Shown: positions 27,060-64,000 of the stretch, in pieces
Numbering within the stretch: position 1 is the stretch's first letter
How the letters are laid out: every line of letters begins with the position of its first letter
Assembly (NCBI GenBank): GCA_034620365.1
Contig: JAQGEQ010000054.1
Span: 186,001-250,000 of the forward strand
Length of the DNA stretch: 64,000 nucleotides
Source of the DNA: Pegea sp. RAD2-039
Taxonomy: Eukaryota; Chordata; Thaliacea; Salpida; Salpidae
Direction: 5' to 3'
The notes under the pieces: generated by a model
Told to the model about the DNA's origin: nothing
What the model saw: only the letters and a program-made list of their open reading frames with translations
Databases searched by the model: none
Translations under genes and position numbers: made by a program

Positions 27060-27066
27060 GATTAGA

Positions 27067-37392: not shown

Positions 37393-37429
37393 TAATAATC
37401 TTCATAATTTTTTCTAATGTTGCCACGAT

Positions 37430-38033: not shown

Positions 38034-38041
38034 TTAAAAAA

Positions 38042-38112: not shown

Positions 38113-38237
38113 ATGTTTCAAGTTCAGTTTTTTGAAATTAATTTTCAATCAGCTGTTTTTGGTGATAAATCAAATTTATTTTTTTATTCAAATAATTATG
38201 TGAGAGAATTACAAATCTTTAAAGAAAATTAAAAAAA

Positions 38238-38308
38238 GGGGACACCCGGATTTGAACCAGGGACCTCTCGGTCTGCAGTCGAATGCTCTACCACTGAGCT
38301 ATATCCCC
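38238..38308 (-). tRNA. tRNA-Cys (GCA), copy 2
   Basis: Same gene as copy 1 except one base in the 3' side of the anticodon stem (CGG for CGA on the plus strand), which changes a pair near the stem end. A run of seven T follows in the transcript sense. Anticodon GCA is intact. Confidence 0.93.
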
Positions 38309-38434
38309 GATGTTTCAACTTCAATTTTTTGAAATTAATTTTCAATGAACTGTTTTTGGTGATAAATCAAATTTATTTTTTTATTCAAATAATTATGTGA
38401 GAGAATTACAAATCTTTAAAAAAAATTAAAAAAA

Positions 38435-38505
38435 GGGGACACCCGGATTTGAACCAGGGACCTCTCGATCTGCAGTCGAATGCTCTACCACTGAGCTATA
38501 TCCCC
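38435..38505 (-). tRNA. tRNA-Cys (GCA), copy 3
   Basis: Identical to copy 1 over all 71 nt, with the T-run terminator. Internal A and B boxes (TAGCTCAGTGG and GGTTCAAATCC) intact. Confidence 0.95.
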
Positions 38506-38631
38506 GATGTTTCAACTTCAATTTTTTGAAATTAATTTTCAATGAACTGTTTTTGGTGATAAATCAAACTTATTTTTTTATTCAAATAATTATGTGAGAG
38601 AATTACAAATCTTTAAAGAAAATTAAAAAAA

Positions 38632-38702
38632 GGGGACACCCGGATTTGAACCAGGGACCTCTCGATCTGCAGTCGAATGCTCTACCACTGAGCTATATCC
38701 CC
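38632..38702 (-). tRNA. tRNA-Cys (GCA), copy 4
   Basis: Identical to copy 1, with the T-run terminator. Confidence 0.95.
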
Positions 38703-38827
38703 ATGTTTCAACTTCAATTTTTTGAAATTAATTTTCAATGAACTGTTTTTGGTGATAAATCAAACTTATTTTTTTATTCAAATAATTATGTGAGAGAATT
38801 ACAAATCTTTAAAAAAAATTAAAAAAA

Positions 38828-38898
38828 GGGGACACCCGGATTTGAACCAGGGACCTCTCGATCTGCAGTCGAATGCTCTACCACTGAGCTATATCCCC
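38828..38898 (-). tRNA. tRNA-Cys (GCA), copy 5
   Basis: Identical to copy 1. The flank on its upstream side (above 38898) no longer matches the repeat spacer, so it marks the array's edge. Confidence 0.95.
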
Positions 38899-40354: not shown

Positions 40355-42743
40355 ATGAAACGCACGAAAGCGATGACGTCATCAGGACTATGTTCAGACA
40401 AACTGTCCGGACTAGCAGCGATTGTGACGTCAATACACTCGATGATCGAAAAGAAAGTCGGTTGTCTTCCAATGAAGAGCTGGGAATGTTACAATCAATT
40501 TGAAGGTTTGTGACGTCATCGATAGTCTCTGACGACTTAGGGGGTTTCCCAAAGCAGAAAGTCGATACTTTTGAAGTCATGCTTCAATGGTTTTGCTTCT
40601 AAAATTTCCTTTCAACTTAATTAAGATAAATTGAGATCACGTGATATGAAAACACCCGCAACAAGTCACGCTTTGTTGCCATGGTGATGAAGCGTGACGT
40701 CATCAATCAGTTTCGAGCGCGGGGTAGTAGGTGACATCTTTCTGCTTCTTCAGAAGCGCAAGAACTGAACACACCATTTGTGGAAAGTAAATCATGCGGA
40801 ACAGGAAGCGATTACGAAGCGATGACGCCATCGTCGCCACCGCCACCGCGATTGTACAAACCGTGTTTCGTTTGTGGAGATAAATCATCAGGATATCATT
40901 ACGGTGTGTCTTCATGTGAAGGATGCAAAGTAAACGCAAAAGAAGCATCGCGTGCATGTGACGTCATCACCATCATTACAGGGCTTCTTTCGAAGAAGCA
41001 TCCAGAAGAATGCCAAATATATTTGTCATCGAAACAACGATTGTAACATCACCAAGGCAACCAGAAGTCGATGTCAACATTGTCGATTACATAAATGTCT
41101 ACAAGTGGGAATGCTACGTGAATGTAATCAATTCAAAACCTTCTCGATGCTGTGTAACACGCGTTTGTGACGTCACAGCTGTACGCAACGATCGTCAACG
41201 CAAGCGTGGGAAAGAGAAGGTATCAAGAACGCGACTCCAACCTTACCTCCAAGCCTCCGGAGCTAATCCTCATCTTCTTCACCATTTTTTCCCTGCCATC
41301 ATTCCCGCCCGACTCCGTGACGTCATCGACATCATTACTCGTGCCCACGTGACCACATCACCTTCTCTCGATCAAATCAAACGTTTTCGATTGGTATGTA
41401 CTCAAGTATGCCGTCACAACCAATAAGATAATGACGTCACAGGAGGATGGAAGCGCGAAGCCGGCGATGAGCGCGACAGTGGATGTTGATCTTTGGAAGA
41501 TCTTCTCGGAAAGATCAACTAAGTGCATCGTGAAGATTGTCGACTTTGCGAAACAAGTTCCTGGGTTTGCTCAATGTTCGATTAATGACAAGATTACATT
41601 GATCAAAAAAGCCAGCATGGATGTGCTCGTATGTTAGCGCTGATGACGTCATCACATCAACTACTGATGACGTCACATGTTGCAGGTGTTGAGGTTGTGT
41701 TCGCGTTATGACGTCAACGAAGATTCGATGACGTTTTCCGATGGATTGACATTGAATCGAGCGCAGATGCACAACTGTGGGTTCGGACCAATCACATCGA
41801 CTGTCTATGAATTCGCTCAGAGACTTCTACCTCTTGCAATTGATGAAACTGAAATTGGACTTCTTAGTGCTCTTTGTATCGTGTGTCCCGGTTCGTCATC
41901 TTTCACATGTTTTCATCGCGCTCATTCTGACGTCATACACAGATCATAAAGATTTGGAAAGAAGTAGTCATGTTGAAGAGATTCAAGAGCCAATTATCGA
42001 ATCTTTAAGACTCTACTCCCGGAAGAAGAGACCTTCCAATCCTTTAATCTTCCCCCAGCTCCTGATGAAGATCTACGATCTCCGGACGATCAGTATGAGA
42101 GGTGATCAAAAAGTTTATCATTTGAAAAATTAGTTTTAGCTAATGGTCAATCTGAGACTGTTATTAAGTAAATATTACTAAGGCGTTATGGTAACTAGGG
42201 AGTCATAGTAACTAGGAAGTCATAGTAACTAGGGTGGCATAGTAACTAAGGAGTCATAGTAACTAGGGAGTCATGGCAACTAGGGAGTCATAGTAACTAG
42301 GGAGTCATAGTAACTAGGGAGTCATGGTAACTAGGTAGTCATAGTAACTAGGGAGTCATGGCAACTAGGGAGTCATAGTAACTAGGGAGTCATAGTAACT
42401 AGGATGGCATAGTAACTAGGGAGTCATAGTAACTAGAGAGTCATAGTAACTAGGGAGTCATAGTAACTAGGGAGTCATGGCAACTAGGGTGTTATAGTAA
42501 CTAGGGAGTCATAGTAACTAGGGAGTCATAGTAACTAGGGAGTCATGGTAACTATAGTGACATTAATCAGATTTGATCTTAACTGAAAAGTAATAAAGCA
42601 GTGGATGATAAAATTCTCTTCAGTAAATCATCATGACTTCATTTCGTGTAGGTTCAGAACGAGTACACTCGCTAAACAACGAGATACCAGTAGGCTCGAT
42701 GCCACCGCTCATCTCGGAGATGCTTCTACGTAATCAACAATGA
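40355..42743 (+). CDS. RAR: retinoic acid receptor, copy A
   Basis: Eight exons (40355-40505, 40754-40929, 40982-41123, 41179-41393, 41443-41628, 41686-41890, 41943-42101, 42652-42743) encode 441 residues with all phases closing. Residues about 88-153 are the two-zinc-finger DNA-binding domain: [21 protein letters not shown]-box EGCKGFFRRS, and [15 protein letters not shown] followed by the RAR-type LRESVRNDR. The ligand-binding domain carries [20 protein letters not shown] and the retinoid-contact arginine in LCSRY; helix 12 keeps the AF-2 core [11 protein letters not shown] binds DNA with RXR and switches genes in response to retinoic acid. Six introns (all but the last) carry TGACGTCA, and five of them are 49-57 nt. 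The last intron is 550 nt and holds a 17-bp minisatellite. The stop codon itself lies in a TGACGTCA. Poly(A) signal at 42781. The N-terminal A/B exon is the least certain part. Confidence 0.9.
42181..42555 (+). repeat. 17-bp minisatellite in the last intron of RAR copy A
   Basis: About 22 head-to-tail copies of AGGGAGTCATAGTAACT with single-base variants (GGCAACT, GGATGGCAT, AGGTAGTC). The matching intron of RAR copy B is 49 nt and has no such repeat, so the expansion is specific to this copy. Confidence 0.95.
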
Positions 42744-42780
42744 CGTCACTGCCTCTTTCTTTTCTTGATTCACAAAATTG

Positions 42781-42786
42781 AATAAA
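42781..42786 (+). terminator. poly(A) signal of RAR copy A
   Basis: AATAAA 38 bp after the stop codon. Confidence 0.5.
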
Positions 42787-42789
42787 ATA

Positions 42790-44243
42790 TTTAATTTTCT
42801 TTTAAATACAAAATAAAAAAACTCCCCACGTGATGGCGCTAGAAATCAGGTTTAAGTTTTAAGTCGATTTTTTTGCGAAGTTTAGTTTTTTAACTTCAAT
42901 TAGAGTTCTTTTATTGTGATAAATTTGAAGAGGTGATATTTGAAACAAAAAACCTTTCAAACTTGACAAATTTCTCGATAAAGTTAAAGTAGTTGAAACG
43001 ATTATTTTTGTTACAAATAATTGAGAATGAAATACAGATAATTTGTTACATCTGTTCAAGACGTTGTTAGAACAATGAATTGAAAGATGAACAAGAAACC
43101 TTTCACGGAGTTCACTTAATGTTCACTTATTTGAAAATTTATGTGAAAAAAGACAATTTTGAAAATAGTTTGTTTAAATTTCACTTTAATTTGTAAATGG
43201 TTGGTTGAAGAAAGTTTGAGTTTTTATCAAACTGGTTGTTGAGTCGATTATAGATAGAGGTTGTTGAAGTAACAATCAGTTCCAAACAAACTAAAATTTC
43301 TATATAGAAATATATAAAATATATAGAAAAGCGTTTTTCACCTTTTAATTGTAAATTAACATTTCAAAGTTTAATTAATTTTCTAAATAATAAAAGAAAT
43401 TTAATTTGAAATTAAGCTTTAAGACAAAATTTGAAAGTTTTTGAAAATTTCGATTTAAATAGTTGATTAAAGTTTAAACCTAAAATTTTTCTGCAGTTAA
43501 TCATTTATTTTTAATTTAAATTAAAAAGAATATATTTATTCGTGACAATTAAGTATTCAAAAATATCTTTTTTAACCAACTTATATTCAATTAAATTTGT
43601 GTTTTTTTCTTTGATGCATTTTGTAAATAAGATTTTGACAAAATTAAATTTTCATCTGGTTTTGAACAAACATATAACCACACCTATAGGTTCATCAAAC
43701 TCAAACCTAAAGATTAAAATATTTACAATTACCTTCAGAATTGTTTGAACATTATCTAAATATTTCTTAATCTAATTTCTTATCTACATTTTTTCAACAA
43801 ATTGATATTTTAAACGTTTTAAACCCCTAAAATAATCAGTATAGGTATTCAACAAAAATGATATATTCAGTAGCTTCTGAACCTTTTTGTAGCCAAATCA
43901 TTGTTGTCATCGGACCATAGTAGTCATGGCTTTGAAGTAAATTACAATTTTTAACGGATGTATTTAATACAATAGCACGGCTTGTAGATACAGTTTCCAG
44001 AAAATGTCTCTAAATCAGTTTATTTTCATGAAACTGATTCTTAAGTAGCAATCGTCTTTGGGGAGTCCTTAGCACCTCTGATCAGCCAACAGCTTCTCAA
44101 ATAGTCTAATTTATCTACTCATCACATAAACACATCATTTTTTTATCTAAATAAACAAATTGTGCGATGACGTGACGATGACGTCACCAGGTGATTTATA
44201 AATGACAAAATGGCAATTTGAGGATGTGGGCAGTGGTCAGTGG
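42790..44243. other. spacer between the convergent RAR genes
   Basis: Falls back to AT-rich composition with almost no TGACGTCA until about 44170. It separates the two 3' ends. A complement of AATAAA near 44022 could serve RAR copy B. No gene seen. Confidence 0.45.
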
Positions 44244-45984
44244 TCAGTCGTTGCGTAGCAACAGTTCAGAGATCAGCGGCGGCATCGTTCCGTTCGGGAT
44301 TTCAGTATTGAGGGAGTGCACGCGCTCCGAGCCTACAAAACGCGATCGTGACGTCATCAAGACCAAGTAAGAGACCTCTACCTTGGATGCTGATCGTCCG
44401 GAGATCGTAGATCTTCATCAGGAGCTGGGGGAAGATTAAAGGATTGGAAGGTCTCTTCTTCCGGGAGTAGAGTCTTAAAGATTCGATAATTGGCTCTTGA
44501 GCAGCTTGTACGCGATCTTCGCGCTCCAAATCTTTATGATCTGTGTATGACGTCAGAATGAGCGCGATGAAAACATGTGATAGATGACGAACCGGGACAC
44601 ACGATACAAAGAGCACTAAGAAGTCCAATTTCAGTTTCATCAATTGCAAGAGGTAGAAGTCTCTGAGCGAATTCATAGACAGTCGATGTGATTGGTCCGA
44701 ACCCACAGTTGTGCATCTGCGCTCGATTCAATGTCAATCCATCGGAAAACGTCATCGAATCTTCGTTGACGTCATAACGCGAACACAACCTCAACACCTG
44801 CAACATGTGATGTCATCAGTAGTTGATGTGATGACGTCATCAGCGCTAACATACGAGCACATCCATACTGGCGCATTTGACGAGAGTGATTTGATCATGA
44901 AGTGAAAAGTCGAGAAATCCAGGAAGGAGTTTGGCAAACTCGACAATCTTCTCGATGCACTTAGTCGATCTTTCCGAGAAGATCTTCCAAAGATCAACAT
45001 CCAACTTATCATCACTTGTCACTTTACCAGCCTACAAATGAATGACGTCACAATCGCGATAAGTACACGCGCGTTACAAACCAATTTGAAGCGCTTAATG
45101 TTATGCAGGCTTGGAGAGGTTTTGATATGAGCTTCGGTGATAGATTTGATTAGTTGGCGGGATTTCAGTGAAAGTTGAACCGGGAAGATCTCTTGTAATA
45201 CCGAAGTGTTTCCACCAAATGCATCCAAAAACATTTTTGTATGATTTGATGACGTATTTGATGACGTCAGCAGTGACATCGACATCTCACTCTTCTTTTC
45301 TTTCCCGCGCTTGCGCTGTCGGTGATTGCGTACAGCTGTGACGTCACAAACGCGTGTTACACAGCATCGAGAAGGTTTTGAATTGATTACATTCACGTAG
45401 CATTCCCACTTGTAGACATTTATGTAATCGACAATGTTGACATCGACTTCTGGTTGCCTTGGTGATGTTACAATCGTTGTTTCGATGACAAATATATTTG
45501 GCATTCTTCTGGATGCTTCTTCGAAAGAAGCCCTGTAATGATGGTGATGACGTCACATGCACGCGATGCTTCTTTTGCGTTTACTTTGCATCCTTCACAT
45601 GAAGACACACCGTAATGATATCCTGATGATTTATCTCCACAAACGAAACACGGTTTGTACAATCGCGGTGGCGGTGGCGACGATGACGTCATCATCGGCG
45701 ACGGTGGGTTGCGGAAGACTTCTATTCTGCCACTAGAAGGCGCCACAACTGCACAAATATCTAACTTTTAGCTAGAAGTTATCAATAACTCTATAGCGTC
45801 AACTATGACGTCATCAATGGTGATTAACGAGTGTTTTTCATGCATGAGTAAGCACGCAACTCAACTATCATTTATCTTAATTACTGGCCGACTAACCACC
45901 GTTGATATTTCGCAATCTATAGCTCGCTACTTGCAGTGGTTGCATCGATGACGTCATCGATGACATCATCGCGTAGTACGTCAT
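44244..45984 (-). CDS. RAR: retinoic acid receptor, copy B
   Basis: Eight exons in transcript order (45984-45900, 45748-45585, 45532-45391, 45335-45082, 45031-44855, 44797-44593, 44540-44382, 44332-44244) encode 424 residues. Exons 3, 6 and 7 have the same lengths as in copy A (142, 205, 159 nt), and all intron positions from exon 2 on are shared. The DNA-binding domain (about 62-127) is identical to copy A, whereas the A/B region, hinge (13 codons longer) and the exon that starts the ligand domain ([18 protein letters not shown]) differ. The AF-2 core reads PPLISELL. Every intron except possibly the first is about 50 nt and holds TGACGTCA or a one-base variant. The start codon is uncertain: I chose ATG in CACGATATGACGTAC; an ATG further up would need a 32-nt intron. 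It is convergent with copy A and divergent from the Sel1-repeat gene. Confidence 0.87.
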
Positions 45985-46806
45985 ATCGTGCTGGTTCTTG
46001 ATTCGACTCGATAAAATCTGAATTTAAATCAGTTGATGACGTCATCAACGCGATACGACGCTATTACTTTTTGGTCCATGTTGCTGGAAAGCTTAAATCT
46101 GTCCATAATAATACTGAATTTTCATTTCAAGCGCTCTGATTGGACGAAGTTAAGGTGTACTGATTGGTTAACTAGCTTGCAACTGAATAATTGAAAAAAA
46201 AACTGAAATTTAGAAAGTTCTTTTGCTGTAACCGAAGCTTTTAATACTTCTGAAACTGCTAGAAGTGAAGATCCTGAATATTTCTCATAAAAAACATTTT
46301 TTCACTTTTTTCATTCACTTGCTTCATTATGTAAATAGGTTTCGAGAAATTTGAACTTAAGTTGACCTCTCTCGTTTCCTGAGATCACATGACCTTTCAA
46401 CCTTGTGTATAAGTGCTCTGCAAATAATGGTGTCACGTGACCACTAAAAAGGACAATTTGCTTGATGATCTGGAAGTCAAATAAAGGTCAACAAATTTTC
46501 AAATTCTATTTTCATGGTTGCTATGGTGATGCGCGCGATCAAGTCATTGATAATGACGAGAAACAGCCGAGATTTGAGCCAAGAAGTTTTTGATTTGAAA
46601 ATTTTCCACCATAAAAGTAAAATTTGCAAATCGGATACTTTCACAGCTTCTAGAAGAAAAGCTTCTCATAAAAACTGGCCATCAATAATTCATAATGACG
46701 TCACGACAAGTTTATGATGACGTCACGTGATAAGATGAAAAATTGATGAAAAAGTGAAAATTGTTATTCAAAAATCTTCAGAAGCTTCGCGAAGTAACTA
46801 GAAGCG
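45985..46806. promoter_or_regulatory. shared upstream region of RAR copy B and the Sel1-repeat gene
   Basis: Head-to-head genes leave about 820 bp here. TGACGTCA occurs near 46036, 46694 and 46718. Half-sites for nuclear receptors (AGGTCA or complement) lie at 46363, 46390 and 46495 but are not spaced as a recognised direct repeat. A shared promoter is inference. Confidence 0.35.
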
Positions 46807-47593
46807 ATGAGACGTCGTAAACTTCATCCACAACAGTCTGAAGAAGAGGCTCCAAGGCATCACGAAGTCCTGAGTCTTGATGACGTCACTTGGACTGGAG
46901 GCGAGGTGAGATAAAGATGATGAAACAAAAGATGAAGATTGTTTTCTAGATCATGATGTTAATTGGTGTCATCTTCTTCGCTTCATTTGCATATTGTTAC
47001 TATGAAGCAATCACCTTTCACCTGGCCTATGGTTACGGTCGCCTTGGTTACCCAGCAGCACAACACGCGACTGGGCAACGATATCTAATTGGTCATGGGG
47101 TTAAAAAAGACGAAGATGAAGCAATGAAGTGGTTTAAGTAGGTGAAAGCGGATATGACGTCATCGATGTTGATTGATCTTGACGTAGGTATGCTTCAGAT
47201 CAAGGTCATCTTGGGTCATCTTATCATCTGGCAGTTGGTCATATAAAAGGTCACCAGACAACTTTAAAAAAAGGGTTAGAAAGTTTAATTTGTACGAATA
47301 GTGAAAACTGAAATTTGTCATCTTCTGTGGAAGCTTCTAGAAGCTCCTCTAAAAGTCATTTTTCTACGTTTCAAAGACTTCCTTAATTTTTGGAATTTGT
47401 TTTGAAAATATTTTTATTTTTTTTATCATTTTTATAAAAATCTTTTTTTATTTCAAATTATCTTGCGGTCTTCAAATTCTAATAACTTTTTCGAAGTGAC
47501 GCGACTCAATTGTTAAAACGCGCGAAGCTCGGCGGGGTGAAAGAGGCAGAGGAAGCGCTACAGATGTGCGCTCGAAGCAGCTGTGACGTTTAA
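46807..47593 (+). CDS. small membrane protein with Sel1-type repeats
   Basis: Four exons (46807-46905, 46950-47137, 47188-47274, 47497-47593) encode 156 residues with closing phases. After a short charged N-terminus (MRRRKLHPQQSEEEAPRHHE) comes one hydrophobic segment (IMMLIGVIFFASFAYCYYEA), then Sel1-like helical repeats: LGYPAAQHATGQRYLIGHGV with KDEDEAMKWFKYASDQGHLG, then SSYHLAVGHI and DATQLLKRAKLGGVKEAEEA. Sel1 repeats are short alpha-helical pairs used for protein binding, often in ER quality control; with a single anchor it may be an ER or Golgi membrane adaptor, but I do not recognise the specific ortholog. TGACGTCA falls inside exon 1 (encoding DDVT) and in intron 2. Poly(A) signal at 47620-47625. 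It is divergent from RAR copy B. Confidence 0.75.
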
Positions 47594-47625
47594 GCAAATC
47601 GTCGCTGTCGTGAGCTGAAAATAAA

Positions 47626-48246
47626 CTCTTTAATTAAAGTTTCTCGATGTTTAATCAATTCGACAGTTACCATAGAAACAGATCGCGTCTACGCGATGAT
47701 CATGTCATCAGAAGCAAAATTTAAAATGTAAAACTGTTGATAAACATTTGAAAGCTTTTAAAAGCGCGATGAAATGGCCTTTCGATGAGCTATATGACGT
47801 CATATTAACTTCAATTATCGAGTAATTTCATCGTAACTAGAAATTCTGCTTTTGATCACAGCGCTTCTTCGAGTCGATCACCACTCGCTCAAAGTGATAA
47901 GATCGCGATGTGATGACGTCATCGACTTTTTAAAAAATGCTTTTTTGAAGGGATGTCGACTCACTGTAGAAAAAGTTTTTTGCCGGTAAATATCCACTTG
48001 ACAAAAATTATTCAGCTAGACAAAAACAAGTTTTGAAAACTTCTCGACGTTTCGCGTTTCCTCAGTCGCTACTAAAGTTATCTCTAAGAGCTCTCTACTG
48101 TCGTTTAGTGCATTAGTTTGGAAGTTAGATTTTCCATACAGAGCCCACAGACCACTTTCAAAAGGATTGTATAGATTAGAAGCACAGTTGTACTTTTAGT
48201 CAGCTAACATTTTTTAAGATCTATTTATCAGATAGTCGTATTGTCA
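47626..48246. other. spacer before the SINE
   Basis: No gene recognised. TGACGTCA occurs near 47796 and 47915. Confidence 0.4.
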
Positions 48247-48635
48247 TGGTCCGTTAGTGGAGCGGTTATCATGCCCGCCCGCCTGACACGCTGAAGGTCC
48301 CGGGCTCGAGCCTGGGTGGAGAAAAATTTGCGACAAGAAAAAGTCCATAAAAAACCAGGGTAGAAGGACATTGTTGGTCAGTTTCATGACAACATTTCTA
48401 AGAGAAGCAAAACTCCGAATTTAAAACCGGAGTTGGAGCCTCGTAGGCAGTTTGTCGTTGTACTCAGTGTCTTTCTGGAAGCTCCTGTGACGTCAGTTGG
48501 GTGTAGCTGCATCAGTCCTTCTGTTCTGCTGCATTTCCTTGTTGGCGTGGAGAGTAGATACCAGCTACATAGGCAACAACTGCATCTCCATAATTTCTGC
48601 CCTAATACACGGCATGACCGTTCTCAGTCAAAGCA
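48247..48635 (+). mobile_element. SINE with tRNA-derived head
   Basis: The first 80 bp resemble a tRNA gene of Val/Asp type: A-box-like TTAGTGGAGCGG at 48254-48265, anticodon-loop region CCGCCTGACACGC and B-box-like GGCTCGAGCCT at 48303-48313. The anticodon stem no longer pairs well, so it is a relic, not a working tRNA. The body from about 48380 to 48635 matches 37141-37392 on the other strand and includes a stem-loop AACTCCG/CGGAGTT (48411-48434) and TGACGTCAG. Internal pol III boxes and a T-rich tail after 48640 fit a SINE. A 78-codon frame within it is chance. The family is not recognised. Confidence 0.75.
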
Positions 48636-50730: not shown

Positions 50731-53700
50731 ATGAATAAGCTTGTCCAAGAAAAAGGTTTGTCTTTTAAATTAGCAAGTAATTGATAATTTTCATATAAAA
50801 TATTTTATATATTGTCTTCAATTTATTCAAACTAACATCACAAGATTGTACTAATATTTTATCTACATAATGTGAAATTATAATCAGAATATGACTTTAA
50901 TTTTTTATAATGATGTTCTTAAGTATGAATTATGGAAAAGTGCATACTGACCACTAGAATAATGGAAATGGGTGAAAACAGTGTTAACTTTATTAAAATA
51001 TTTCATTCTTTCAACAGATAATAAATAGTTTTCTCATAATTAAGCTGACTGCTGATGTATACTTAGGATAATTAACCCAAAAACCACATAAAATGTTTTT
51101 TTATAGATTAAGTTGCAAATTCAAATTTTAACAAATAGTTTCTAAGTGTTACCATATAAATGGAAAACTTTGATTCTTTTAGCTTTGAAAAATTTATTTT
51201 TAAAGCAAATAAATGAGGCTTATCTACTTTTAACTTATACCTGAATTTACTTTATCAAATTTATTGTGAAATTAAAAAAAATGGTATTATCAGAAAGATT
51301 TATTTATTATATTTGTTAATCTGTACAAACTTAGGCAAAACATTTGGTTTAAAGCAAGCCCAATTTTTAAGGAACAAATAAGTCAGTAATTAATCAAATA
51401 CTGCTCTAAATTTTCATGAATTTTGTATCAGCTGCAATGAATATAAATAATCATTCTAAACCAAACACAAGCGTCGATGGTGTAACGGTTAGCATTGGTG
51501 CCTTCCAAGCACTAGTTCCGGGTTCGACTCCCGGTCGACGCATAATTTTTTCAATTTTAAATTAGCAACTTAGAAATAACGATAAAAGTTGATGATTTAG
51601 ATGAAGAGATCGCGAAGCTTCTATTGGAGAAGCGACAACTAACCGGTGATTTGGAGCAATGTAAAGCCGATAAAGATTTTGTTTGGTCGCTATGGGAAAA
51701 ACTACAACAAGAATCACCCGATCTTACGCAAGTTTGTTGTTCGCTTGTTACTTGTTGCTATCATCATGTCGTGCTGTTGGTTGCTAGGCAATCAGTTTCG
51801 TGTTAGATCGCGAGAAGATGCAAACAGAAGCGAAAGATCAAAAAGTCTTGGAACTACTTGATTCTAAAGACACTGAAATCAGATATCTTCAAAATGAGCT
51901 TTGTAATCTACAATCCAAGTTAGTTATTTTCTCTAAATCTTCATCTTCTTCTAATTGTTGTCATAGAAACCTGGATATAAATTCGCAATTGAGTAATAAT
52001 TTATTGGAATGCCGACAACTTAAGGATGAATTACAATATATTAATAATTCCATCACTGACTTACCTTCAAAAAGTTGTCTAAGGTGATCTTTCTCTTCCA
52101 CAAAATTTCTTGTATCAATTATTCTTAATTTCTAACCCCTACCCCCAGTCTGAAGCCTTCAAGCACTATCTGAAACCACCTGAACCTATTTGTATCCCCT
52201 AAACCTTAGTTACACCCATCAAACCATTTTTGCAAACCATAAACCTTGTTTACAACAACTTAAACCCTCTTACTAATCCCAAAACCTACTTTCTAATCCT
52301 AAAACTATTAAACTTTGCAGTATGACAGAACTTTTCAAGAAACTGTCAGCAGAAACCACGAAATATGTGGAAAAGGTTAGTAGCCTCAAAAATGTTTATT
52401 AACAGGTCATAAACTTTCGTTTATAGATTGCACAATTGGAATCAGCATTAGTTGATTCACAGAACCACTGTGCACAGAGTGAAGACGAAAAACAAATACT
52501 GAAGAAAGAGTTGGATCAAATTCATAAAGTCATGTTGAATTCACCTGTAGGAAGTTCTCAAAGGTGATAGCTTATATTGAAACCTCTCAAAACCCTATTT
52601 GCACTAATCAAACCCTATTTGCAACCATCAAACCCTATTTGAAACCATCAAACCCTGTTTGCAACAATCAAACCCTATTTGCAACCATCAAGCACTAGTA
52701 CAAACCTCCACCTACGTTTGCACCATCTTAAACCCTCTTACTATTTCCCAATCTTTGTTTCTAATCCTTAAACTATTAAACTTTGCAGTATGACAGACGC
52801 TTTCAAGAAACTGTCAGCAGAAACCACGAAATATGTGGAAAAGGTTAGTAGCCTCAAAAATGTTTATAAACAGGTCATAAACTTTCGTTTGTAGATTGCA
52901 CAATTGGAATCAGCATTAGTTGATTCACAGAACCACTGTGCACAGAGTGAAGACGAAAAACAAATACTGAAGAAAGAGTTGGATCAAATTCATAAAGTCA
53001 TGTTGAATTCACCTGTAGGAAGCTCTCAAAGGTGATAGCTTATATTGAAACCTCTCAAAACCCTGTTTGCACCAATCAAACCCTATTTGCAACCATCAAA
53101 CCCTATTTGAAACCATCAAACCCTGTTTGCAACAATCAAACCCTATTTGCAACCATCAAGCACTAGTACAAACCCTCCACCTACGTTTGCACCAGCTTAA
53201 ACCCTCTTACTATTCTCCTAACTTTGTTTCTAATCCTTAAAATATTTAACATTGCAGTACGGCAGACGTTTTCAAGAAACTGTCAGCAGAAACCACGAAA
53301 CAAGTGGAAAAGGTTAGTAGCCTAAAAAATGTTTATAAACAGGTCATAAACTTTCGTTTGTAGATTGCACAATTGGAATCAGCATTAGTTGATTCACAGA
53401 ACCACTGTGCACAGAGTGAAGACGAAAAACAAATACTGAAGAAAGAGTTGGATCAAATTCATAAAGTCATGTTGAATTCACCTATAGGAAGCTCTCAAAG
53501 GTGATAGTTTATATTGAAACCTCTCAAAACCCTGTTTTCACCAATCAAGCTCTATTTGCAACTATCAAGCCATATTTTCAACCATCAAACTCTATTTGCA
53601 ACCATCAAGCCCTGTTTGCAACCAATCAAGCCCTGTCTGTACCAATAATATACTATTTACAACAATCAAATCCTATTTGCAACTATTAAACCTATTTGCA

Positions 53701-56700
53701 CGAATCAATTTCTGTTTGCAACCATCAAACCCTATTTGCAACCATCAAGCACTGTTACGAGCCTTCAAACCATATTGCACCAGCTTTAACCCTCTTACAA
53801 CTCCCCAAACTTTGTTTCTAATCCTTAAACTCTTAAACTTTGCAGCATGACAGACACTTTCAAGAAACTGTCAGCAGAAACCACAAAACAAGTGGAAAAG
53901 GTTAGTAGCCTCAAAAATTGTTTATAAACAGGTCATAAACATTCGTTTGTAGATTGCACAGTTGGAATCAGCATTAGTTGCTGCACAAAACAACTGTGCG
54001 CAAAGTGAAGACGAAAAACAAATGCTGAAGAAAGAGTTGGATCAAATTCATAAAGTCATGTTGAATTCACCTGTAGGAAGTTCTCAAAGGTGATAGCTTA
54101 TATTGAAACTTCTCAAAACCCTGTTTGCAACAATCAAACCCTATTTGCAACTATCAATCCTTATTTGCACCCAACAAACCCTATTTGCAACTATGAAATC
54201 CTATTTGCAACAATCAAACCCTATTTGCAACAATCAAACCCTATTTGCTAACATCAAACCATATTTGCACCCATCAAGCCCTGTTTGCAACAACCAAACC
54301 ATATTTGCACCAATCACAACCTTTTTGCACCAATCAAACCCTATTTGCACTAATCAAGCCTTATTTGCAACCATCAAACCCTGTTTGAAACCATCAAACC
54401 CTGTTTGCAACAATCAAACCATATTTGCAACCATCAGCACTAGTACAAACCCTCAAACTACGTTTACACCAGCTTAAACCCTCTTACTATTCCTCTTACT
54501 TTGTTTCTAATCCTTAAACTATTAAACTTTGCAGTACAGCAGACGTTTTCAAGAAACTGTCGGCAGAAACCACAAAACAAGTGGAAAAGGTTAGTAGCCT
54601 CAAAAATGTTTATAAACAGGTCATAAACTTTCGTTTGTAGATTGCACAGTTGGAATCAGCATTAGTTGATTCACAAAACAACTGTGCACAGAGTGAAGAC
54701 GAAAAACAAATGCTGAAGAAAGAGTTGGATCAAATTCATAAAGTCATGTTGAATTCACCTGTAGGAAGCTCTCAAAGGTGATAGCTTATATTGAAACTTC
54801 TCAAAACCCTGTTTGCAACCAACAAACCTTATTTGCACCCATCAAGCCCTATTTGGACCAATCAAGACCTTTTTGCAACCAACAAACCTTATTTTCAACC
54901 ATCAAACCTTATTTGCACGAATCAAGCCCTATTTGCACCCATCAAGCCTTATTTGCACGAATCAAGCCCTATTTGCACCCATCAATCCTTATTTGCATTA
55001 ATCAAGACCCTTTTGCAACCATCAAATGCTATTTTTAACCATCAAGCCTTATTTGCACCAATCAAGCCCTGTTTGCATCCATCAAACCCTATTTGCTACC
55101 ATCAAACCATATTTGCACCAATCAAACCGTATTTGCACTCATTAAGCCCTGTTTGCAACAATCAAACCCTATATGCACTAATCAAACCCTATTTTTGCAA
55201 CAATCAAGCCTTATTTGCAACTAACAAACCTTATTTTCAACCATCAAACTCTATTTGCACCCATCAAGCCCTATTTGCACCAATCAAATCCTATTTGCAA
55301 CCATCAAGCCATATTTGCATCAATCAAACCCTATTTGCTACCCTCAAACCATATTTGCACCAGTCAAGCCCTATTTAAAACCATCAAATCCTATTTGCAC
55401 CCATCAAGCCCTGTTTGCAACAACCAAACCATATTTGCACCAATCATAACCTTTTTGCACCGATCAAACCCTATTTGCACTAATTCAGCCTTATTTGCAA
55501 CCATCAAACCCTATTTGAAACCATCAAACCCTGCTTGCAACAATCAAACCCTATTTGCAACCATCAGCAATAGTACAAACCCTCAAACTACGTTTGCACC
55601 AGCTTAAACCCTCTTACTATTCCCCAAACTTTGTTTCTAATCCTTAAACTATTAAACTTTGCAGTATGACAGACGCTTTCAAGAAACTGTCAACAGAAAC
55701 CACGAAACAAGTGGAAAAGGTTAGTAGCCTCAAAAATGTTTATAAACAGGTCATAAACTTTCGTTTGTAGATTGCACAGTTGGAATCAGCATTACTTGCT
55801 GCACAAAACAACTGTGCGAAAGGTGAAGACGAAAAACAAATACTGAAGAAAGAGTTGGATCAAATTCATAAAACCATGTTGAGTTCACCTATAGGAAGCT
55901 GTCAAAGGTGATAGTTTATATTGAAACCTCTCAAAACCCTGTTTGCACTCATCAAACCATATTTGCACTAATAAACCATATTTGCACCCATCAAACCCTA
56001 TTTGCAACTATGAAATCCTATTTGCAACCACCAAGTTATATTTGAAACCATCAAGCCCTGTTTGCGCCAATCAACCAATTTTTGCATCAACCTAACATTT
56101 TTTCACCCCTCAAAACCTTATTTGCACCCATCAAACCTTATTTACAACAATCAAACCCTTTTTGCACTCATCAAGCCTTGTTTGCAAACTCTCAAGCACT
56201 GTAAAAAACCCTCAGACCATATTTGCACCAGCTTTAACCCTCTTACAACTCCCCAAACTTTGTTTCTAATCCTTAAAATATTTAACATTGCAGTACGGCA
56301 GACGTTTTCAAGAAACTGTCAGCAGAAACCACGAAACATGTGGAAAAGGTTAGTGGCCTCAAAAATGTTTATTAACAGGTCATAAACTTTCGTTTGTAGA
56401 TTGCACAGTTGGAATCAGCATTAGTTGCTGCACAAAACAACTGTGCGCAAAGTGAAGACGAAAAACAAATACTGAAGAAAGAGTTGGATCAAATTCATAA
56501 AGTCATGTTGAATTCACCTGTAGGAAGCTCTCAAAGGTGATAGCTTATATTGAAACCTCTCAAAACCCTGTTTGCACCAATCACATCATATTTGCAACCA
56601 TCAATCCCTATTTGCATCCATCAAAGCTTATTTTCAACCATCAAACTCTATTTGCAACCATCAAGCCCTATTAGCACCAATCAAGACCTTTTTGCAACCA

Positions 56701-59700
56701 TCAAACCTTATTTGCATCAATCAAGACCTTTTTGCAACCATCAAATCCTATTTGCAACCATCAAGCCCTATTTGCACGAATCAAGCCCTGTTTGCATCCA
56801 TCAAACCCTATTTGCTACCATCAAACCATATTTGCACCAATCAAACCCTATTTGCAACTATCAAACCTTATTTGCACGAATCAAGCCCTATTTGCACCCA
56901 TCAAACCGTATTTGCACTCATTAAGCCCTGTTTGCAACAATCAAACCCTATATGCACTAATCAAACCCTATTTTTGCAACAATCAAGCCTTATTTGCAAC
57001 CATCAAACTTTATTTTCAACCATCAAACTCTTTTTGCACCCATCAAGCCCTATTTGCACCAATCAAATCCTATTTGCACCCATCAAGCCTTATTTGCACG
57101 AATCAAGCCCTATTTGCAACCATCAAGCCATATTTGCATTAATCAAGACCTTTTTGCAACCATCAAAGCCTATTTGCAACCATCAAGCCCTAATTGCACG
57201 AATCAAGCCTTATTTGCAACCATCAAGCCATATTTGCACTTGTCAAGCCCTGTTTGCATCCATCAAACCCTATTTGTTACCATCAAACCAAATTTGCACC
57301 AATCAAGCCCTATTTAAAACCATCAAATCCTATTTGCAACCATCAAATCCTATTTGCAACAACCAAACATTTATGCACCTCTCAAAACCCTATTTGCACC
57401 CATCAAATCCTATTTGCAACAACCAAACCATATTTACACCAATCATAACCTTTTTGCACCGATCAAACCCTATTTGCACTAATCAAGCCTTATTTGTTAC
57501 CATCAAACCCTATTTGAAACCATCAAACCCTATTTGCACTAATCAAACCTTATTTGCAACCATCAAACCCTATTTGCAAAGATCAAACCCTATTCGCAAC
57601 CATCAAACCATATTTGCACCCATCAAACCCTATTTGCACCAATCAAACCCTATTTGCAGCCATCAAGCCCTATTTGCACCCATCAAACCCTATTTGCAGC
57701 CATCAAGCCCTATTTGCACCCATCAAGCCTTATTTGCACGAATCAAGTCCTATTTGCAACCATCAGCAATAGTACAAACCTTCAAACTACGTTTGCACCA
57801 GCTTAAACCCTCTTACTATTCCCCTAACTTTGTTTCTAATCCTTAAAATATTTAACATTGCAGTACGGCAGACGTTTTCAAGAAACTGTCAACAGAAACC
57901 ACGAAACAACTGGAAAAGGTTAGTAGCCTAAAAAATGTTTATAAACAGGTCATAAACTTTCATTTGTAGATTGCACAATTGGAATCAGCATTAGTTGCTG
58001 CACAAAACAACTGTGCGAAAAGAGAAGACGAAAAACAAATACTGAAGAAAGAGTTGGATCAAATTCATAAAACCATGTTGAGTTCACCTATAGGAAGCTG
58101 TCAAAGGTGATAGTTTATATTGAAACCTCTCAAAACCCTGTTTGCACTCATCAAACCATATTTGCACTAGTAAACCATATTTGCACCCATCAAACCCTAT
58201 TTGCAACTATGAAATCCTATTTGCAACCACCAAGTTATATTTGAAACCATCAAGCCCTGTTTGCGCCAATCAACCAATTTTTGCATCAACCTAACATTTT
58301 TTCACCCCTCAAAACCTTATTTGCACCCATCAAACCTTATTTACAACAATCAAACCCTTTTTGCACTCATCAAGCCTTGTTTGCAAACTCTCAAGCACTG
58401 TAAAAAACCCTCAGACCATATTTGCACCAGCTTTAACCCTCTTACAACTCCCCGAACTTTGTTTCTAATCCTTAAACTCTTAAACTTTGCAGTATGACAG
58501 ACGTTTTCAAGAAACTGTCAGCAGAAACCACGAAACATGTGGAAAAGGTTAGTGGCCTCAAAAATGTTTATTAACAGGTCATAAACTTTCGTTTGTAGAT
58601 TGCACAGTTGGAATCAGCATTAGTTGCTGCACAAAACAACTGTGCGCAAAGTGAAGACGAAAAACAAATACTGAAGAAAGAGTTGGATCAAATTCATAAA
58701 GTCATGTTGAGTTCACCTGTAGGAAGCTCTCAAAGGTGATAGTTTATATTGAAACCTCTCAAAACCCTGTTTGCACCAATCACATCATATTTGCAACCAT
58801 CAATCCCTATTTGCATCCATCAAAGCTTATTTTCAACCATCAAACTCTATTTGCACCCATCAAGCCCTATTAGCACCAATCAAGACCTTTTTGCAACCAT
58901 CAAACCTTATTTGCATCAATCAAGACCTTTTTGCAACCATCAAATCCTATTTGCAACCATCAAGCCCTATTTGCACGAATCAAGCCCTATGTGCAACCAT
59001 CAAGCCTTATTTGCACTCGTCAAGCCCTGTTTGCATCCATCAAACCCTATTTGCTACCATCAAACCATATTTGCACGAATCAAGCCTTATTTGCAACCAT
59101 CAAACCTTATTTGCATCAATCAAGACCTTTTTGCAACCATCAAATCCTATTTGCAACCATCAAACCTTATTTGCATCAATCAAGACCTTTTTGCAACCAT
59201 CAAGACCTTTTTGCAACCATCAAACCTTATTTGCATCAATCAAGACCTTTTTGCAACCATCAAATCCTATTTGCAACCATCAAGCCCTATTTGCACGAAT
59301 CAAGCCCTGTTTGCATCCATCAAACCCTATTTGCACGAATCAAGCCTTATTTGCACTCGTCAAGCCTTATTTGCACGAATCAAGCCCTGTTTGCATCCAT
59401 CAAACCCTATTTGCTACCATCAAACCATATTTGCACCAATCAAACCTTATTTGCATCAATCAAGACCTTTTTGCAACCATCAAGACCTTTTTGCAACCAT
59501 CAAACCTTATTTGCATCAATCAAGACCTTTTTGCAACCATCAAATCCTATTTGCAACCATCAAGCCCTATTTGCACGAATCAAACCCTATTTGCTACCAT
59601 CAAACCATATTTGCACGAATCAAGCCTTATTTGCACTCGTCAAGCCTTATTTGCACGAATCAAGCCCTGTTTGCATCCATCAAACCCTATTTGCTACCAT

Positions 59701-62700
59701 CAAACCATATTTGCACCAATCAAACCCTATTTGCAACTATCAAACCTTATTTGCACGAATCAAGCCCTATTTGCACCCATCAAACCGTATTTGCACTCAT
59801 TAAGCCCTGTTTGCAACAATCAAACCCTATATGCACTAATCAAACCCTATTTTTGCAACAATCAAGCCTTATTTGCAACCATCAAACTTTATTTTCAACC
59901 ATCAAACTCTTTTTGCACCCATCAAGCCCTATTTGCACCAATCAAATCCTATTTGCACCCATCAAGCATTATTTGCACGAATCAAGCCCTATTTGCAACC
60001 ATCAAGCCATATTTGCATTAATCAAGACCTTTTTGCAACCATCAAAGCCTATTTGCAACCATCAAGCCCTAATTGCACGAATCAAGCCTTATTTGCAACC
60101 ATCAAGCCATATTTGCACTTGTCAAGCCCTGTTTGCATCCATCAAACCCTATTTGTTACCATCAAACCAAATTTGCACCAATCAAGCCCAATTTAAAACC
60201 ATCAAATCCTATTTGCAACAACCAAACATTTATGCACCTCTCAAAACCCTATTTGCACCCATCAAATCCTATTTGCAACAACCAAACCATATTTACACCA
60301 ATCATAACCTTTTTGCACCGATCAAACCCTATTTGCACTAATCAAGCCTTATTTGTTACCATCAAACCCTATTTGAAACCATCAAACCCTATTTGCACTA
60401 ATCAAACCTTATTTGCAACCATCAAACCATATTTGCATCCATCAAACCCTATTTGCACCAATCAATCCCTATTTGCACCCATCAAGCCTTATTTGCACGA
60501 ATCAAGTCCTATTTGCAACCATCAGCAATAGTACAAACCTTCAAACTACGTTTGCACCAGCTTAAACCCTCTTACTATTCCCCTAACTTTGTTTCTAATC
60601 CTTAAATTATTTAACATTGCAGTACAGCAGACGTTTTCAAGAAACTGTCAACAGAAACCACGAAACAAGTGGAAAAGGTTAGTAGCCTCAAAAATGTTTA
60701 TAAACAGGTCATAAACTTTCGTTTGTAGATTGCACAGTTGGAATCAGCATTACTTGCTGCACAAAACAACTGTGCGAAAGGTGAAGACGAAAAACAAATA
60801 CTGAAGAAAGAGTTGGATCAAATTCATAAAACCATGTTGAGTTCACCTATAGGAAGCTGTCAAAGGTGATAGTTTATATTGAAACCTCTCAAAACCCTGT
60901 TTGCAACAATCAAGCTCTATTTGAAACCATCAAGCCCTGTTCGCAAACATCAAACCGTATTTATCACCATCAAGCCCTGTTTGCGCCAATCAACCAATTT
61001 TTGCATCAACCTAACATTTTTGCACCCCTCAAAACCTTATTTGCACCCATCAAACCTTATTTGCAACAATCGTACCCTTTTTGCACTCATCAAGCCTTGT
61101 TTGCAAACTCTCAAGCACTGTAAAAAACCCTCAGACCATATTTGCACCAGCTTTAACCCTCTTACAACTCCCCAAACTTTGTTTCTAATCCTTAAACTCT
61201 TAAACTTTGCAGCATGACAGACGTTTTCAAGAAACTGTCAGCAGAAACCACGAAACATGTGGAAAAGGTTAGTGGCCTCAAAAATGTTTATAAACAGGTC
61301 ATAAACATTCGTTTGTAGATTGCACAGTTGGAATCAGCATTAGTTGCTGCACAAAACAACTGTGCGCAAAGTGAAGACGAAAAACAAATACTGAAGAAAG
61401 AGTTGGATCAAATTCATAAAGTCATGTTGAATTCACCTGTAGGAAGCTCTCAAAGGTGATAGCTTATATTGAAACCTCTCAAAACCCTGTTTGCACCAAT
61501 CAAGCCTTATTTGCATCCAACAAACCCTATTTGCAACTATGAAATCCTATTTGCAACCATCAAATCCTATATGCACTAATCAAACCTTATTTTTGCAACA
61601 GTTAAGCCTTAATTCCACCCATCAAACCTTATTTGCAACCATCAAATCCCATTTGCAACCATCAAACCATATTTGCACCAATCAAACCCTATTTGCAACC
61701 ATCAAGCCCTATTTGCACAAATCAAGACCTTTTTGCAACCTTCAAGCCCTGTTTGCATCCATCAAACCCTATTTGCACTAATCAAGCCTTATTTGCATCA
61801 ATCAAACCATATTTGCACCAATCAAACCATATTTGCACCAATCAAATCCTATTTGCAACCATCAAGCACTAGTACAAACCTCCACCTACGTTTGCACCAG
61901 CTTAAACCCTCTTACTATTCCCCTAACTTTGTTTCTAATCCTTAAACTATTTAACATTGCAGTACAGCAGACGTTTTCAAGAAACTGCCAGCAGAAACCA
62001 CGAAACAAGTGGAAAAGGTGAGTAGCCTCAAAAATGTTTATAAACAGGTCATAAACTTTCGTTTGTAGATTGCACAATTGGAATCAGCATTACTTGCTGC
62101 ACAAAACAACTGTGCGAAAAGAGAAGACGAAAAACAAATACTGAAGAAAGAGTTGGATCAAATTCATAAAACCATGTTGAATTCACCTGTAGGAAGCTCT
62201 CAAAGGTGATAGCTTATATTGAAACCTCTCAAAACCCTGTTTGCACCAATCAAGCTCTATTTGCAACTATCATCCTTATTTGCACCCAACAAACCATATT
62301 TGCAACCATCAAACCATATTTGCACCAATCATAACCTTTTTGAACCATCAAACCCTATTCACACCAATCAAACCTTATTTGCAACCATCAAACCATATTT
62401 GCACCCAACAAACTCTATTTCCAACCATCAAAATCCTATTTGCACCCAACAAACCATATTTGCAACCATCAAATCCTATTTGCAACAACCAAACTATATT
62501 TGTAACCATCAAACCATATTTTCACAAATCAAACCATATTTGAAACCATCAATCGTTATTTGCAACCATCAAACCATATTTGCAACAATTAAACCTTTTT
62601 TGCAACCATCAAACCCTATTTGCAACCATCAAACTCTGTTTGCAACCATCAAACCATATTTGCAACCATTAAACCTTTTTTGCAACCATCAAACCCTATT

Positions 62701-64000
62701 TGCTACCATCAAGCCCTATTTGCAACAATCAAACCCTATTTGCACAAATCAAGCCTTATTTTCAACCATCAAGCTCTGTTTGCAACCATCAAACCCTATT
62801 TGCATCAATTAAAACGTATTTGCAACCATCAAACCAAATTTGCATCAATCATACCCTTTTTGCACCAATCAAACCCTATTTGCACAAATCAAGCCTTATT
62901 TTCAACCATCAAACTCTGTTTGCAACCATCAAACCATATTTGCATCAATTAAAACGTATTTGCAACCATCAAACCAAATTTGCATCAATCATACCCTTTT
63001 TGCACCAATCAAACCCTATTTGCACTAATCAAACCTTATTTGCAACCATCAAATCCTATTTGCAACCATCAACCCTGTTTGAAACCATCAAACCTTATTT
63101 GCACTAATCAAGCACTAGTACAAACCTCCACCTACGTTTGCACCAGCTTAAACCCTCTTACTATTTCCCAATCTTTGTTTCTAATCCTTAAACTATTAAA
63201 CTTTGCAGTATGACAGACGTTTTCAAGAAACTGTCAGCAGAAACCACAAAACAAGTGGAAAAGGTTAGTAGCCTCAAAAATGTTTATAAACAGGTCATAA
63301 ACTTTCGTTTGTAGATTGCACAATTGGAATCAGCATTAGTTGCTGCACAAAACAACTGTGCGAAAAGAGAAGACGAAAAACAAATACTGAAGAAAGAGTT
63401 GGATCAAATTCATAAAGTCATGTTGAATTCACCTGTAGGAAGCTCTCAAAGGTGATAGTTTATATTGAAACCTCTCAAAACCCTGTTTGCAACAATCAAG
63501 CTCTATTTGCAACTATCAATCCATATTTGCAACCATCAAATCCTATTTGCAACAACCAAAATATATTTGTAACCATCAAACCCTATTTGCACTTATCAAG
63601 CCATATTTGCAGCCATCAAACCTTATTTGCAACCATCAAACTCTATTTGCAACCATCAAACCATATTTGCAACAATTAAACCTTTTTTGCAACCATCAAA
63701 CCCTATTTGCTACCATCAAGCCCTATTTGCAACAATCAAACCCTATTTGCACAAATCAAGCCTTATTTGCAACCATCAAACCCTATTTGAAACCATCAAA
63801 CCCTATTTGCAACAATCAAACCCTATTTGCAACCATCAAGCACTAGTACAAACCTCCACCTACGTTTGCACCATCTTAAACCCTCTTACTATTTCCCAAT
63901 CTTTGTTTCTAATCCTTAAACTATTAAACTTTGCAGTATGACAGACGTTTTCAAGAAACTGTCAGCAGAAACCACGAAACATGTGGAAAAGGTTAGTGGC
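50731..64000 (+). CDS. CNTLN: centlein, 5' part, with an amplified exon pair
   Basis: First exons 50731-50755, 51601-51753 and 51807-52083, then the repeated exon pairs listed separately; the total is 3006 coding nt (1002 codons), and the gene continues past the window. Identification rests on the N-terminal segment LEQCKADKDFVWSLWEKLQ, SPDLTQVCCSLV and REKMQTEAKDQKVLELL, which matches centlein's CxADKxFVWSLWxxLQ...NPDLTQxxSLVxxREK pattern. Centlein is a coiled-coil centrosomal protein that links C-Nap1 and Cep68 and holds centrioles together. After about 151 residues the protein consists of at least 13 repeats of 64 residues, each helical and charged (FKKLSAETTKxVEKIAQLES; DEKQILKKELDQIHK). 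The junction at 51753/51807 was chosen because it restores the frame with a 53-nt intron. Orthologs I know do not show this repeat array. The start at 50731 is the phase-compatible ATG; earlier exons cannot be excluded. Confidence 0.82.
51471..51542 (+). tRNA. tRNA-Gly (TCC)
   Basis: 72-nt cloverleaf: acceptor GCGTCGA/TCGACGC, anticodon stem-loop GGTGC-CTTCCAA-GCACT giving anticodon TCC, T arm CCGGGTTCGACTCCCGG, and a discriminator A. An ATTTTTT pol III stop follows at once. It lies within the first intron of centlein on the same strand, 58 bp before its second exon. Confidence 0.95.
54778..55664 (+). repeat. minisatellite intron 5 of the array (887 nt)
   Basis: About 40 copies of the 20-bp unit between constant ends. 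A short block shared with the 1327- and 1887-nt introns (CATCAAACCGTATTTGCACT region) indicates exchange between introns. Confidence 0.85.
56537..57863 (+). repeat. minisatellite intron 7 of the array (1327 nt)
   Basis: About 63 units. Long parts match the 1887-nt intron at 58736-60622 unit by unit, including rare variants such as CTATTAGCACCAATCAAGAC and CCCTATTTTTGCAACAATC. Confidence 0.88.
58736..60622 (+). repeat. minisatellite intron 9 of the array (1887 nt)
   Basis: The longest block, about 90 units, related to intron 7 but with an additional inner amplification of a multi-unit motif alternating TTATTTGCATCAATCAAGAC and TTTTTGCAACCATCAAATCC (about 58900-59560). Confidence 0.88.
62206..63208 (+). 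repeat. minisatellite intron 12 of the array (1003 nt)
   Basis: About 46 units with some of their own variants (CATACCCTTTTTGCACCAAT; TTAAAACGTATTTGCAACC), which form a nested repeat of about 140 bp (seven units) near 62740-63030. The remainder of 3 modulo 20 is the lowest of the array because of small deletions in some units. Confidence 0.85.

Follow-up and report, generated by a model that had tools for sequence, protein, structure and literature searches.

The question raised by this locus is how a pair of small exons can come to stand 22 times, in frame, within a single gene, and what such an array would mean for the protein. The window analysed here is the whole stretch of 64,000 nucleotides of the salp Pegea sp. 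RAD2-039 (assembly GCA_034620365.1, a genome of 105.7 Mb in 387 contigs) that corresponds to positions C77:186001-250000, C77 being contig JAQGEQ010000054.1; the neighbouring C77:250001-300000 was added to it. Positions without a prefix are those of the window, and the gene lies on the forward strand. We consider it highly probable that this gene is centlein, in which an exon pair has been amplified to 22 in-frame copies, with a hybrid exon at the birth of the repeat, stepwise growth of the array and a lengthened predicted protein.

An array of 22 exon pairs

The original prediction, made from the letters of the window, described 14 exons of 55 nt (exon A, 52321-63991) and 13 exons of 137 nt (exon B, 52427-63451), all in frame. 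Every one of them is present, with AG/GT borders, and no stop is met across the 13 pairs of the window. The count of 'at least 13' pairs understated the array, because the window ends inside it: between C77:238321 and C77:257069, we found 22 complete A+B units, head-to-tail on one strand. Mean identity of the exon pairs is 93.7% for the 13 pairs of the window and 94.5% for all 22 units; 21 of the 22 pairs are distinct as DNA, and 20 of the 22 unit peptides are distinct. After unit 22 comes a 23rd exon A, at C77:257935, whose partner (exon B23, C77:258041-258190) resembles unit B for 65 nt and diverges afterwards.

The exons were counted with a first search allowing substitutions only, and with a second one by gap-tolerant BLASTN. 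Run with both exons over 114 kb (the window and the next 50 kb), BLASTN returned the identical 23 places for A and 23 for B, the last of the B matches being the partial one of 65 nt, and no gapped or decayed extra copy of either exon was found in these 114 kb. When the unit peptide was compared with its own genome, all the matches listed (36) were on C77.

Both introns of the unit, the short one within the pair (51-52 nt) and the long one that follows it, start with GT and end with AG in all 22 units, and their phases are compatible. The 44 unit exons all have intact splice sites and compatible phase, as is expected of tandem exon duplication. The long intron has the donor GTGATA and the acceptor TTGCAG in 22 of 22 units, and the donor of the short intron is GTTAGT in 20 units and GTGAGT in two. 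Reading through either intron leads to an in-frame stop in every one of the 22 units, so that splicing is needed. A spliced model of 56 exons (three upstream, the 22 pairs and nine downstream) was built from the first N-terminal exon recognised to exon C77:260717-261169, which leaves out the C-terminal exons. One frame of this model is open over 2,193 codons without any stop, the other two containing 143 and 149 stops. The model predicts that all 22 pairs are joined in one mRNA.

Identity of the gene

Centlein has a conserved block at the N terminus, with the motif DKxFVWSLW..LQ...PDLTQA, and another at the C terminus, which begins with ERDxTMKRHLIExL. The human segments used for alignment were not taken from database records, and each was shuffled 50 times as a control. 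The N-terminal block is carried by exon Ea (51574-51731), the first centlein exon recognised, whose 5' limit is provisional and which encodes DKDFVWSLWEKLQQESPDLTQ in its last part, and is continued by exon Eb (51788-51918), which encodes AISFVLDREKMQTEAKDQKVLELLDSKD in its first part; both exons have an open frame and AG/GT borders. Taken together, they are 62% identical to the human segment over 53 amino acids (75.9 bits), and the C-terminal open frame (C77:266740-267489) is 32% identical over 190 amino acids (100 bits), compared with at most 36 bits for shuffled segments. The name centlein, first given on the strength of the N terminus, is therefore upheld at both ends of the gene (76 and 100 bits), and its orthology appears well supported at the level of sequence similarity. 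Matches to the human middle part were weak: 22 and 29 bits for two segments, and none for a third. A Pfam scan of the unit and of five other exon segments gave no family above the curated cut-off, only coiled-coil look-alikes, and the unit peptide had a single match among solved structures, at chance level (E 1.7).

Mammalian centlein has the same N- and C-terminal conserved blocks, as judged against these segments. An orthologue would be expected to bind C-Nap1/Cep68, SUN5/PMFBP1 or microtubules. In mammals, centlein is listed among the centrosome linker proteins (PMC9597181), it joins SUN5 and PMFBP1 in the sperm neck, by binding regions within residues 601-1396 (PMC8363609), and it binds microtubules via its longest coiled coil (PMC10520482).

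Birth of the repeat

The sequences that flank the array suggest how the repeat may have arisen. The last exon before the array, B0 (51967-52083), has a 3' end related to the 3' half of unit B, and the intron that follows it, intron 0 (52084-52320), has a 3' end related to the long intron of the unit. In numbers, the first 65 nt of unit B are the same as in B23 at 61 sites, and its last 71 nt, aligned at the donor, are the same as in B0 at 41 sites. This match of 41 sites was reached by none of 5,000 dinucleotide shuffles and none of 5,000 codon shuffles, and the B0 donor ranks first among the 215 forward-strand AGGT sites located outside the array in the 114 kb, the runner-up reaching 32. If the end of B0 is taken three bases short, the anchored match to unit B is reached by 1,026 to 1,363 of 2,000 shuffles. 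A gapped alignment of B0 with this short end to unit B was equalled by 71 of 500 shuffles, and by none of 500 once the 40 following bases had been added to both sequences. When its last 60 nt are compared with the 3' ends of all 22 long introns, intron 0 shows a mean identity of 86% (90% for the best).

By these matches, unit exon B is a hybrid, whose 5' half corresponds to the exon that follows the array and whose 3' half corresponds to the exon that precedes it. An unequal exchange between B0 and B23 could produce such a situation: it would generate a second copy of A together with a hybrid B, keeping the frame and the splice sites, and the order after the exchange would be B0, A, hybrid B (5' part from B23, 3' part from B0), A and B23. 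The three similarities, to B23, to B0 and to intron 0, are read directly from the alignments; the exchange event we infer from them.

Growth of the array and exchange among copies

The long introns range from 225 to 1,887 nt, and their length varies through a 20-bp minisatellite (AAACCCTATTTGCAACCATC and variants), detected with Tandem Repeats Finder. An exact 23-nt probe for this minisatellite occurs at 24 or more places in the genome (place counts of repeat probes are lower bounds), all of them within C77:238609-257457. Tandem repeats with a period of at least 8 and at least four copies make up 52% of the centlein gene span, compared with 2.4% of the window upstream of the gene, counting the tRNA array, and 4.2% of the 31.8 kb downstream. 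With the same criteria, none was reported in nine other loci (43 kb in all), two of these being given at 0% and seven having no entry. Another minisatellite, of 21 bp and about 139 copies (93% matches), occupies C77:263826-266743, in the centlein region that precedes the C-terminal open frame, and long stretches of this repeat lack stops in forward frames.

The three longest near-identical stretches of the array pair units 17-19 with 19-21 (19 mismatches in 1,786 nt), units 11-12 with 14-15 (three mismatches in 1,230 nt, or 99.8% identity) and units 5-7 with 7-9 (26 mismatches in 1,240 nt). As aligned, they are steps of two and three units. In agreement with this, units separated by one other unit resemble each other more than permutation predicts (P = 0.0002), and immediate neighbours do not (P = 0.28). 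All four combinations of alleles were found at 293 of 630 pairs of sites, which, recurrent mutation being left aside, requires a minimum of 13 exchanges over 277 nt; for this test, the extra base in the short intron of unit 4 was dropped, and sites with three alleles, or at which the minor allele occurs once, were excluded. In the case of units 18 and 20, the long introns are 99.4% identical and the exons differ at 8 of 192 sites, a contrast that fits mosaic exchange. The copies thus appear to be homogenized by exchange, as in concerted evolution, although recurrent mutation could supply part of the signal.

The array may have grown by unequal crossing over and gene conversion, two- and three-unit steps being among the events, and the 20-bp minisatellite, private to the array, would have expanded alongside in the long introns. 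Because the young duplicated stretch differs at only three of its 1,230 sites, it is plausible that copy number varies between individuals, as the original prediction had supposed. We also considered whether exchange takes place in the minisatellite, which would explain why the young duplications end there. This is unproven: the ends of all 36 segment pairs (36/36) lie in a long intron, but this count is biased and was not used as proof, because the matches were ungapped and length changes are almost confined to long introns.

A second in-frame tandem duplication is present in the same gene, at C77:258191-260625, where three exons (X, Y and Z) occur twice. The two copies show one difference in 219 nt for one exon and none in 104 nt for another, and the remaining exon is identical over 234 nt, then differs. 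The last exon of the first copy looks like a hybrid, 10 of its 16 tail bases being those of B23, but this tail is too short for such a claim.

The predicted protein

The unit peptide, SMTDVFKKLSAETTKQVEKIAQLESALVAAQNNCAQSEDEKQILKKELDQIHKVMLNSPVGSSQ, follows a single heptad register over the 53 residues that precede its SP motif (87 of 20,000 shuffles were as good; this segment was picked by eye). Each unit ends with SPVGSSQ or a variant of it, a stretch of Pro, Gly and Ser that is likely to form a hinge. Since 64 residues are nine heptads plus one, the register slips by one place per unit. As predicted, the array inserts 22 x 64 = 1,408 residues downstream of the N-terminal block, ahead of the middle and C-terminal parts, and the product would be a chain of coiled coils of about 50 residues each, joined by short Pro/Gly/Ser hinges. 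Were it one unbroken coil, the computed ceiling would be 9.5 nm per unit and about 209 nm for 22. An array placed between the N-terminal block and the rest would make a longer tether, and would multiply any binding site present in the unit. From the model, the likeliest effect is a linker that is longer and jointed and that offers many equivalent sites.

Selection on the copies and alternative explanations

Several observations weigh against the reading proposed above. Regarding the gene, its identity was judged on human segments other than database records, and the matches of the middle segments, at 29 bits or less, lie under the best shuffle of another segment. Regarding the mRNA, the inclusion of all pairs is a prediction. 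Regarding the copies, the ratio of nonsynonymous to synonymous variation (pN/pS) among the 22 units is 0.73, and the distinct variants comprise 8 synonymous and 25 nonsynonymous ones, when 8.6 synonymous variants are expected without constraint. One further variant would create a stop only in isolation, and no copy carries a stop. The variability of exon B is close to that of the short intron, and exon A varies about as much as the adjoining end of the upstream intron. There are no stops where 1.8 are expected, but the chance of finding none is 0.15, and there is no gap in the 22 copies of either exon: stop-free copies alone are weak evidence, pointing to a weak excess of intactness. With no sign of constraint among them, the copies do not by themselves demonstrate a function. 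At the heptad 'a' positions, none of eight vary, compared with 14 of the 45 others in the segment, which is suggestive only. Number and sequence of the copies are probably under loose constraint.

The question arises as to whether the array is a neutral by-product: a recombination-prone minisatellite region would have dragged the exon pair along, and the extra protein would be tolerated but idle. Such neutral lengthening of a tolerated tether competes seriously with our main reading, and we regard it as a real possibility. The pN/pS ratio, a synonymous share as high as without constraint and exons as variable as introns all agree with it, as do the load of tandem repeats, much higher in the gene span than on either side, and the second young block duplication, also in frame, found downstream. 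In contrast, none of the 44 unit exons has a gap, a stop or a broken GT/AG, which is modestly fewer defects than neutral drift predicts.

A centrosomal linker made longer by equal steps had been seen by the original prediction as a plausible molecular ruler, each 64-residue pair adding a fixed length of rigid coil, such that copy number would set the distance between the structures bound by centlein. The equality of the units and their coiled-coil periodicity go in this direction, and so does the position of the array, after the N-terminal block and ahead of the middle and C-terminal parts, in a protein described as a linker (PMC9597181, PMC8363609). However, nothing that we measured supports a ruler: the copies evolve without visible sequence constraint, the unit is not made of whole heptads (64 = 9 x 7 + 1), and a break of the SPVGSSQ type interrupts the coil in each unit, so that an unbroken coil is not what is predicted, although a jointed ruler is conceivable. 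Moreover, a duplication as young as the 99.8% identical one suggests that length probably drifts. We therefore tend to consider this hypothesis unlikely.

Just as doubtful, in our view, is an array of cassettes, in which pairs would be alternatively included or skipped, giving many isoform lengths and a splicing repertoire. Exon A ends at a codon border and exon B two bases into a codon, so that skipping a whole pair keeps the frame and skipping a single exon breaks it; in addition, 20 of the 22 peptides are distinct. Yet the splice sites are almost uniform from unit to unit, with no sign of a choice of one among many. Finally, inflation of the array by the joining of two haplotypes or by repeat misassembly is very improbable, and would account for no more than a few units: units 11-13 and 14-16 do differ by only 1, 1 and 0 exon bases, and the X-Y-Z block is also almost identical in its two copies, but exact repeats within the array are all shorter than 800 nt, its long introns differ widely in length, nearly all its exon pairs are distinct, and a contig of 6.1 Mb suggests long reads.

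Comparison with known systems

Amplification of exon blocks within a gene is already known. To our knowledge, mammalian centlein contains no such exon array. Titin is reported to include a segmental duplication, in which exon blocks are tandemly duplicated within the gene and vary in copy number. In the triplicate region of nebulin (NEB), as described in PMC9109913, eight exons are present three times, by intragenic duplication of a block whose copy number varies; here, by comparison, two exons occur in 22 copies, the long introns hold a minisatellite, and a hybrid exon marks the birth point. The spider aciniform spidroin AcSp1 shares with our array near-identical coding repeats that are homogenized within one gene, but its complete gene has no detected introns, as stated in PMC3933166, whereas each repeat here consists of two exons with introns. 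As for mammalian centlein, fragments mapped in PMC8363609 reach residue 1396, and the present model counts 2,193 residues even without its C-terminal exons, 1,408 of them in repeats. The present case is set apart by the gene concerned, by the large number of near-identical pairs, by a hybrid exon that can still be read and by a minisatellite confined to the array.

The original prediction knew of no described centlein array, and our literature search, limited to open-licence papers and covering the centlein literature in part, likewise brought up no precedent. In the open-licence literature, nothing was found on centlein in tunicates, on tandem exon duplication in centrosomal coiled-coil proteins, or on exon duplication combined with minisatellites, introns and unequal crossing over.

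Position of the units in the window

Unit 1 (52321-52563) is composed of A at 52321-52375, a 51-nt intron and B at 52427-52563. Then come unit 2 (52789-53031; A 52789-52843, B 52895-53031), unit 3 (53258-53500; A 53258-53312, B 53364-53500) and unit 4 (53846-54089; A 53846-53900, B 53953-54089), which has the sole short intron of 52 nt. They are followed by unit 5 (54535-54777; A 54535-54589, B 54641-54777), unit 6 (55665-55907; A 55665-55719, B 55771-55907), unit 7 (56294-56536; A 56294-56348, B 56400-56536), unit 8 (57864-58106; A 57864-57918, B 57970-58106) and unit 9 (58493-58735; A 58493-58547, B 58599-58735). The last complete ones are unit 10 (60623-60865; A 60623-60677, B 60729-60865), unit 11 (61213-61455; A 61213-61267, B 61319-61455), unit 12 (61963-62205; A 61963-62017, B 62069-62205) and unit 13 (63209-63451; A 63209-63263, B 63315-63451). 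The gaps between these units, from 52564 to 63936, are the long introns of units 1-13, which hold the 20-bp minisatellite. Unit 14 starts at 63937, and the window closes at 64000 after its exon A (63937-63991) and the beginning of its intron. Beyond the window, in C77:250001-261169, lie the remainder of that unit, units 15-22, the 23rd exon A and the modelled downstream exons. At the other end of the gene, a tRNA-Gly(TCC) gene on the same strand (51471-51542) ends 31 bases before exon Ea, and may sit in a centlein intron.

Other features of the window and genome

A tunicate origin of the DNA is also suggested by the genome itself. A GH6 match (C14:74494-74718) scores 27.5 bits for a cut-off of 27, and none of 14 control genomes gave one. 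On the same strand, 1.7 kb before it, lies a cellulose-synthase-like match (C14:71914-72770, E 2e-29). According to PMC6523144, the GH6 domain of CesA is found in eight of eight tunicates and in none of 35 other animals, tunicate CesA being a fusion of both domains. The cellulose-synthase-like match counts for less: it reaches 106.8 bits for a cut-off of 699.1, and the same model also responds in 11 of the 14 controls. The assignment consequently rests mainly on GH6 and on the adjacency of the two matches, by which the genome is most likely that of a tunicate; the two matches are a candidate for a single fused gene. A search for mitochondrial COX1, meant to test the genetic code of the organism, gave no match.

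The palindrome TGACGTCA occurs 42 times in the window, compared with 0.45 expected under a second-order model (at most one in 20 simulations). All but one of these sites (41 of 42) are within 37274-48488, and another 65 are in C77:270001-300000. Its distribution is patchy, with 11 sites in the 43 kb of nine other loci, 7 of those in one locus. The next commonest palindromic octamer with at least four G or C occurs four times in positions 1-51500 of the window. By eye, the sites are in introns, spacers and some open frames, and they resemble a highly iterated palindrome.

A nuclear receptor gene is present in inverted copies, at 40821-42103 (forward strand) and 44380-45693 (reverse strand), whose arms are 94-98% alike; zf-C4 is above cut-off in both copies, and the ligand-domain match is below cut-off in both. 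By their motifs, they presumably resemble a retinoic acid receptor, although a receptor stretch used as query matched C25:636172-636306 (61%) and not these copies. Beside this gene is a 17-bp minisatellite of 21 copies (42191-42554). A second inverted pair consists of BTB_2 (KCTD-like) sequences, at 19632-20023 (forward) and 26679-27070 (reverse), which are 99% identical over 392 nt and differ at their 3' ends. Five tRNA-Cys(GCA) genes are found at 38036-38905, in tandem units of about 197 bp that are 97% alike. Lastly, C77:276435-279889 contains a tandem repeat that recurs about every 1.58 kb, three copies of which share a 300-nt stretch at 99-100% identity.

What the array may mean

At a single locus, this centlein gene would display both the scar of a repeat's birth, in the form of the hybrid exon, and the way in which the array later gained whole units, next to a minisatellite that is confined to it. 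A more speculative idea, which we judge rather improbable, is that centlein length is heritable and variable in copy number, with the minisatellite driving an accordion that gains or loses two or three 64-residue links at a time, and thereby adjusting, between individuals or species, the reach or the valency of either the centriole linker or the coupling of sperm head and tail. If copy number does vary among animals, they would offer a natural length series of a linker of the centrosome and sperm neck, by which linker length could be related to spacing. Even if the protein is not expressed as predicted, the locus would be a clear case of intronic minisatellites and exon duplication going together.

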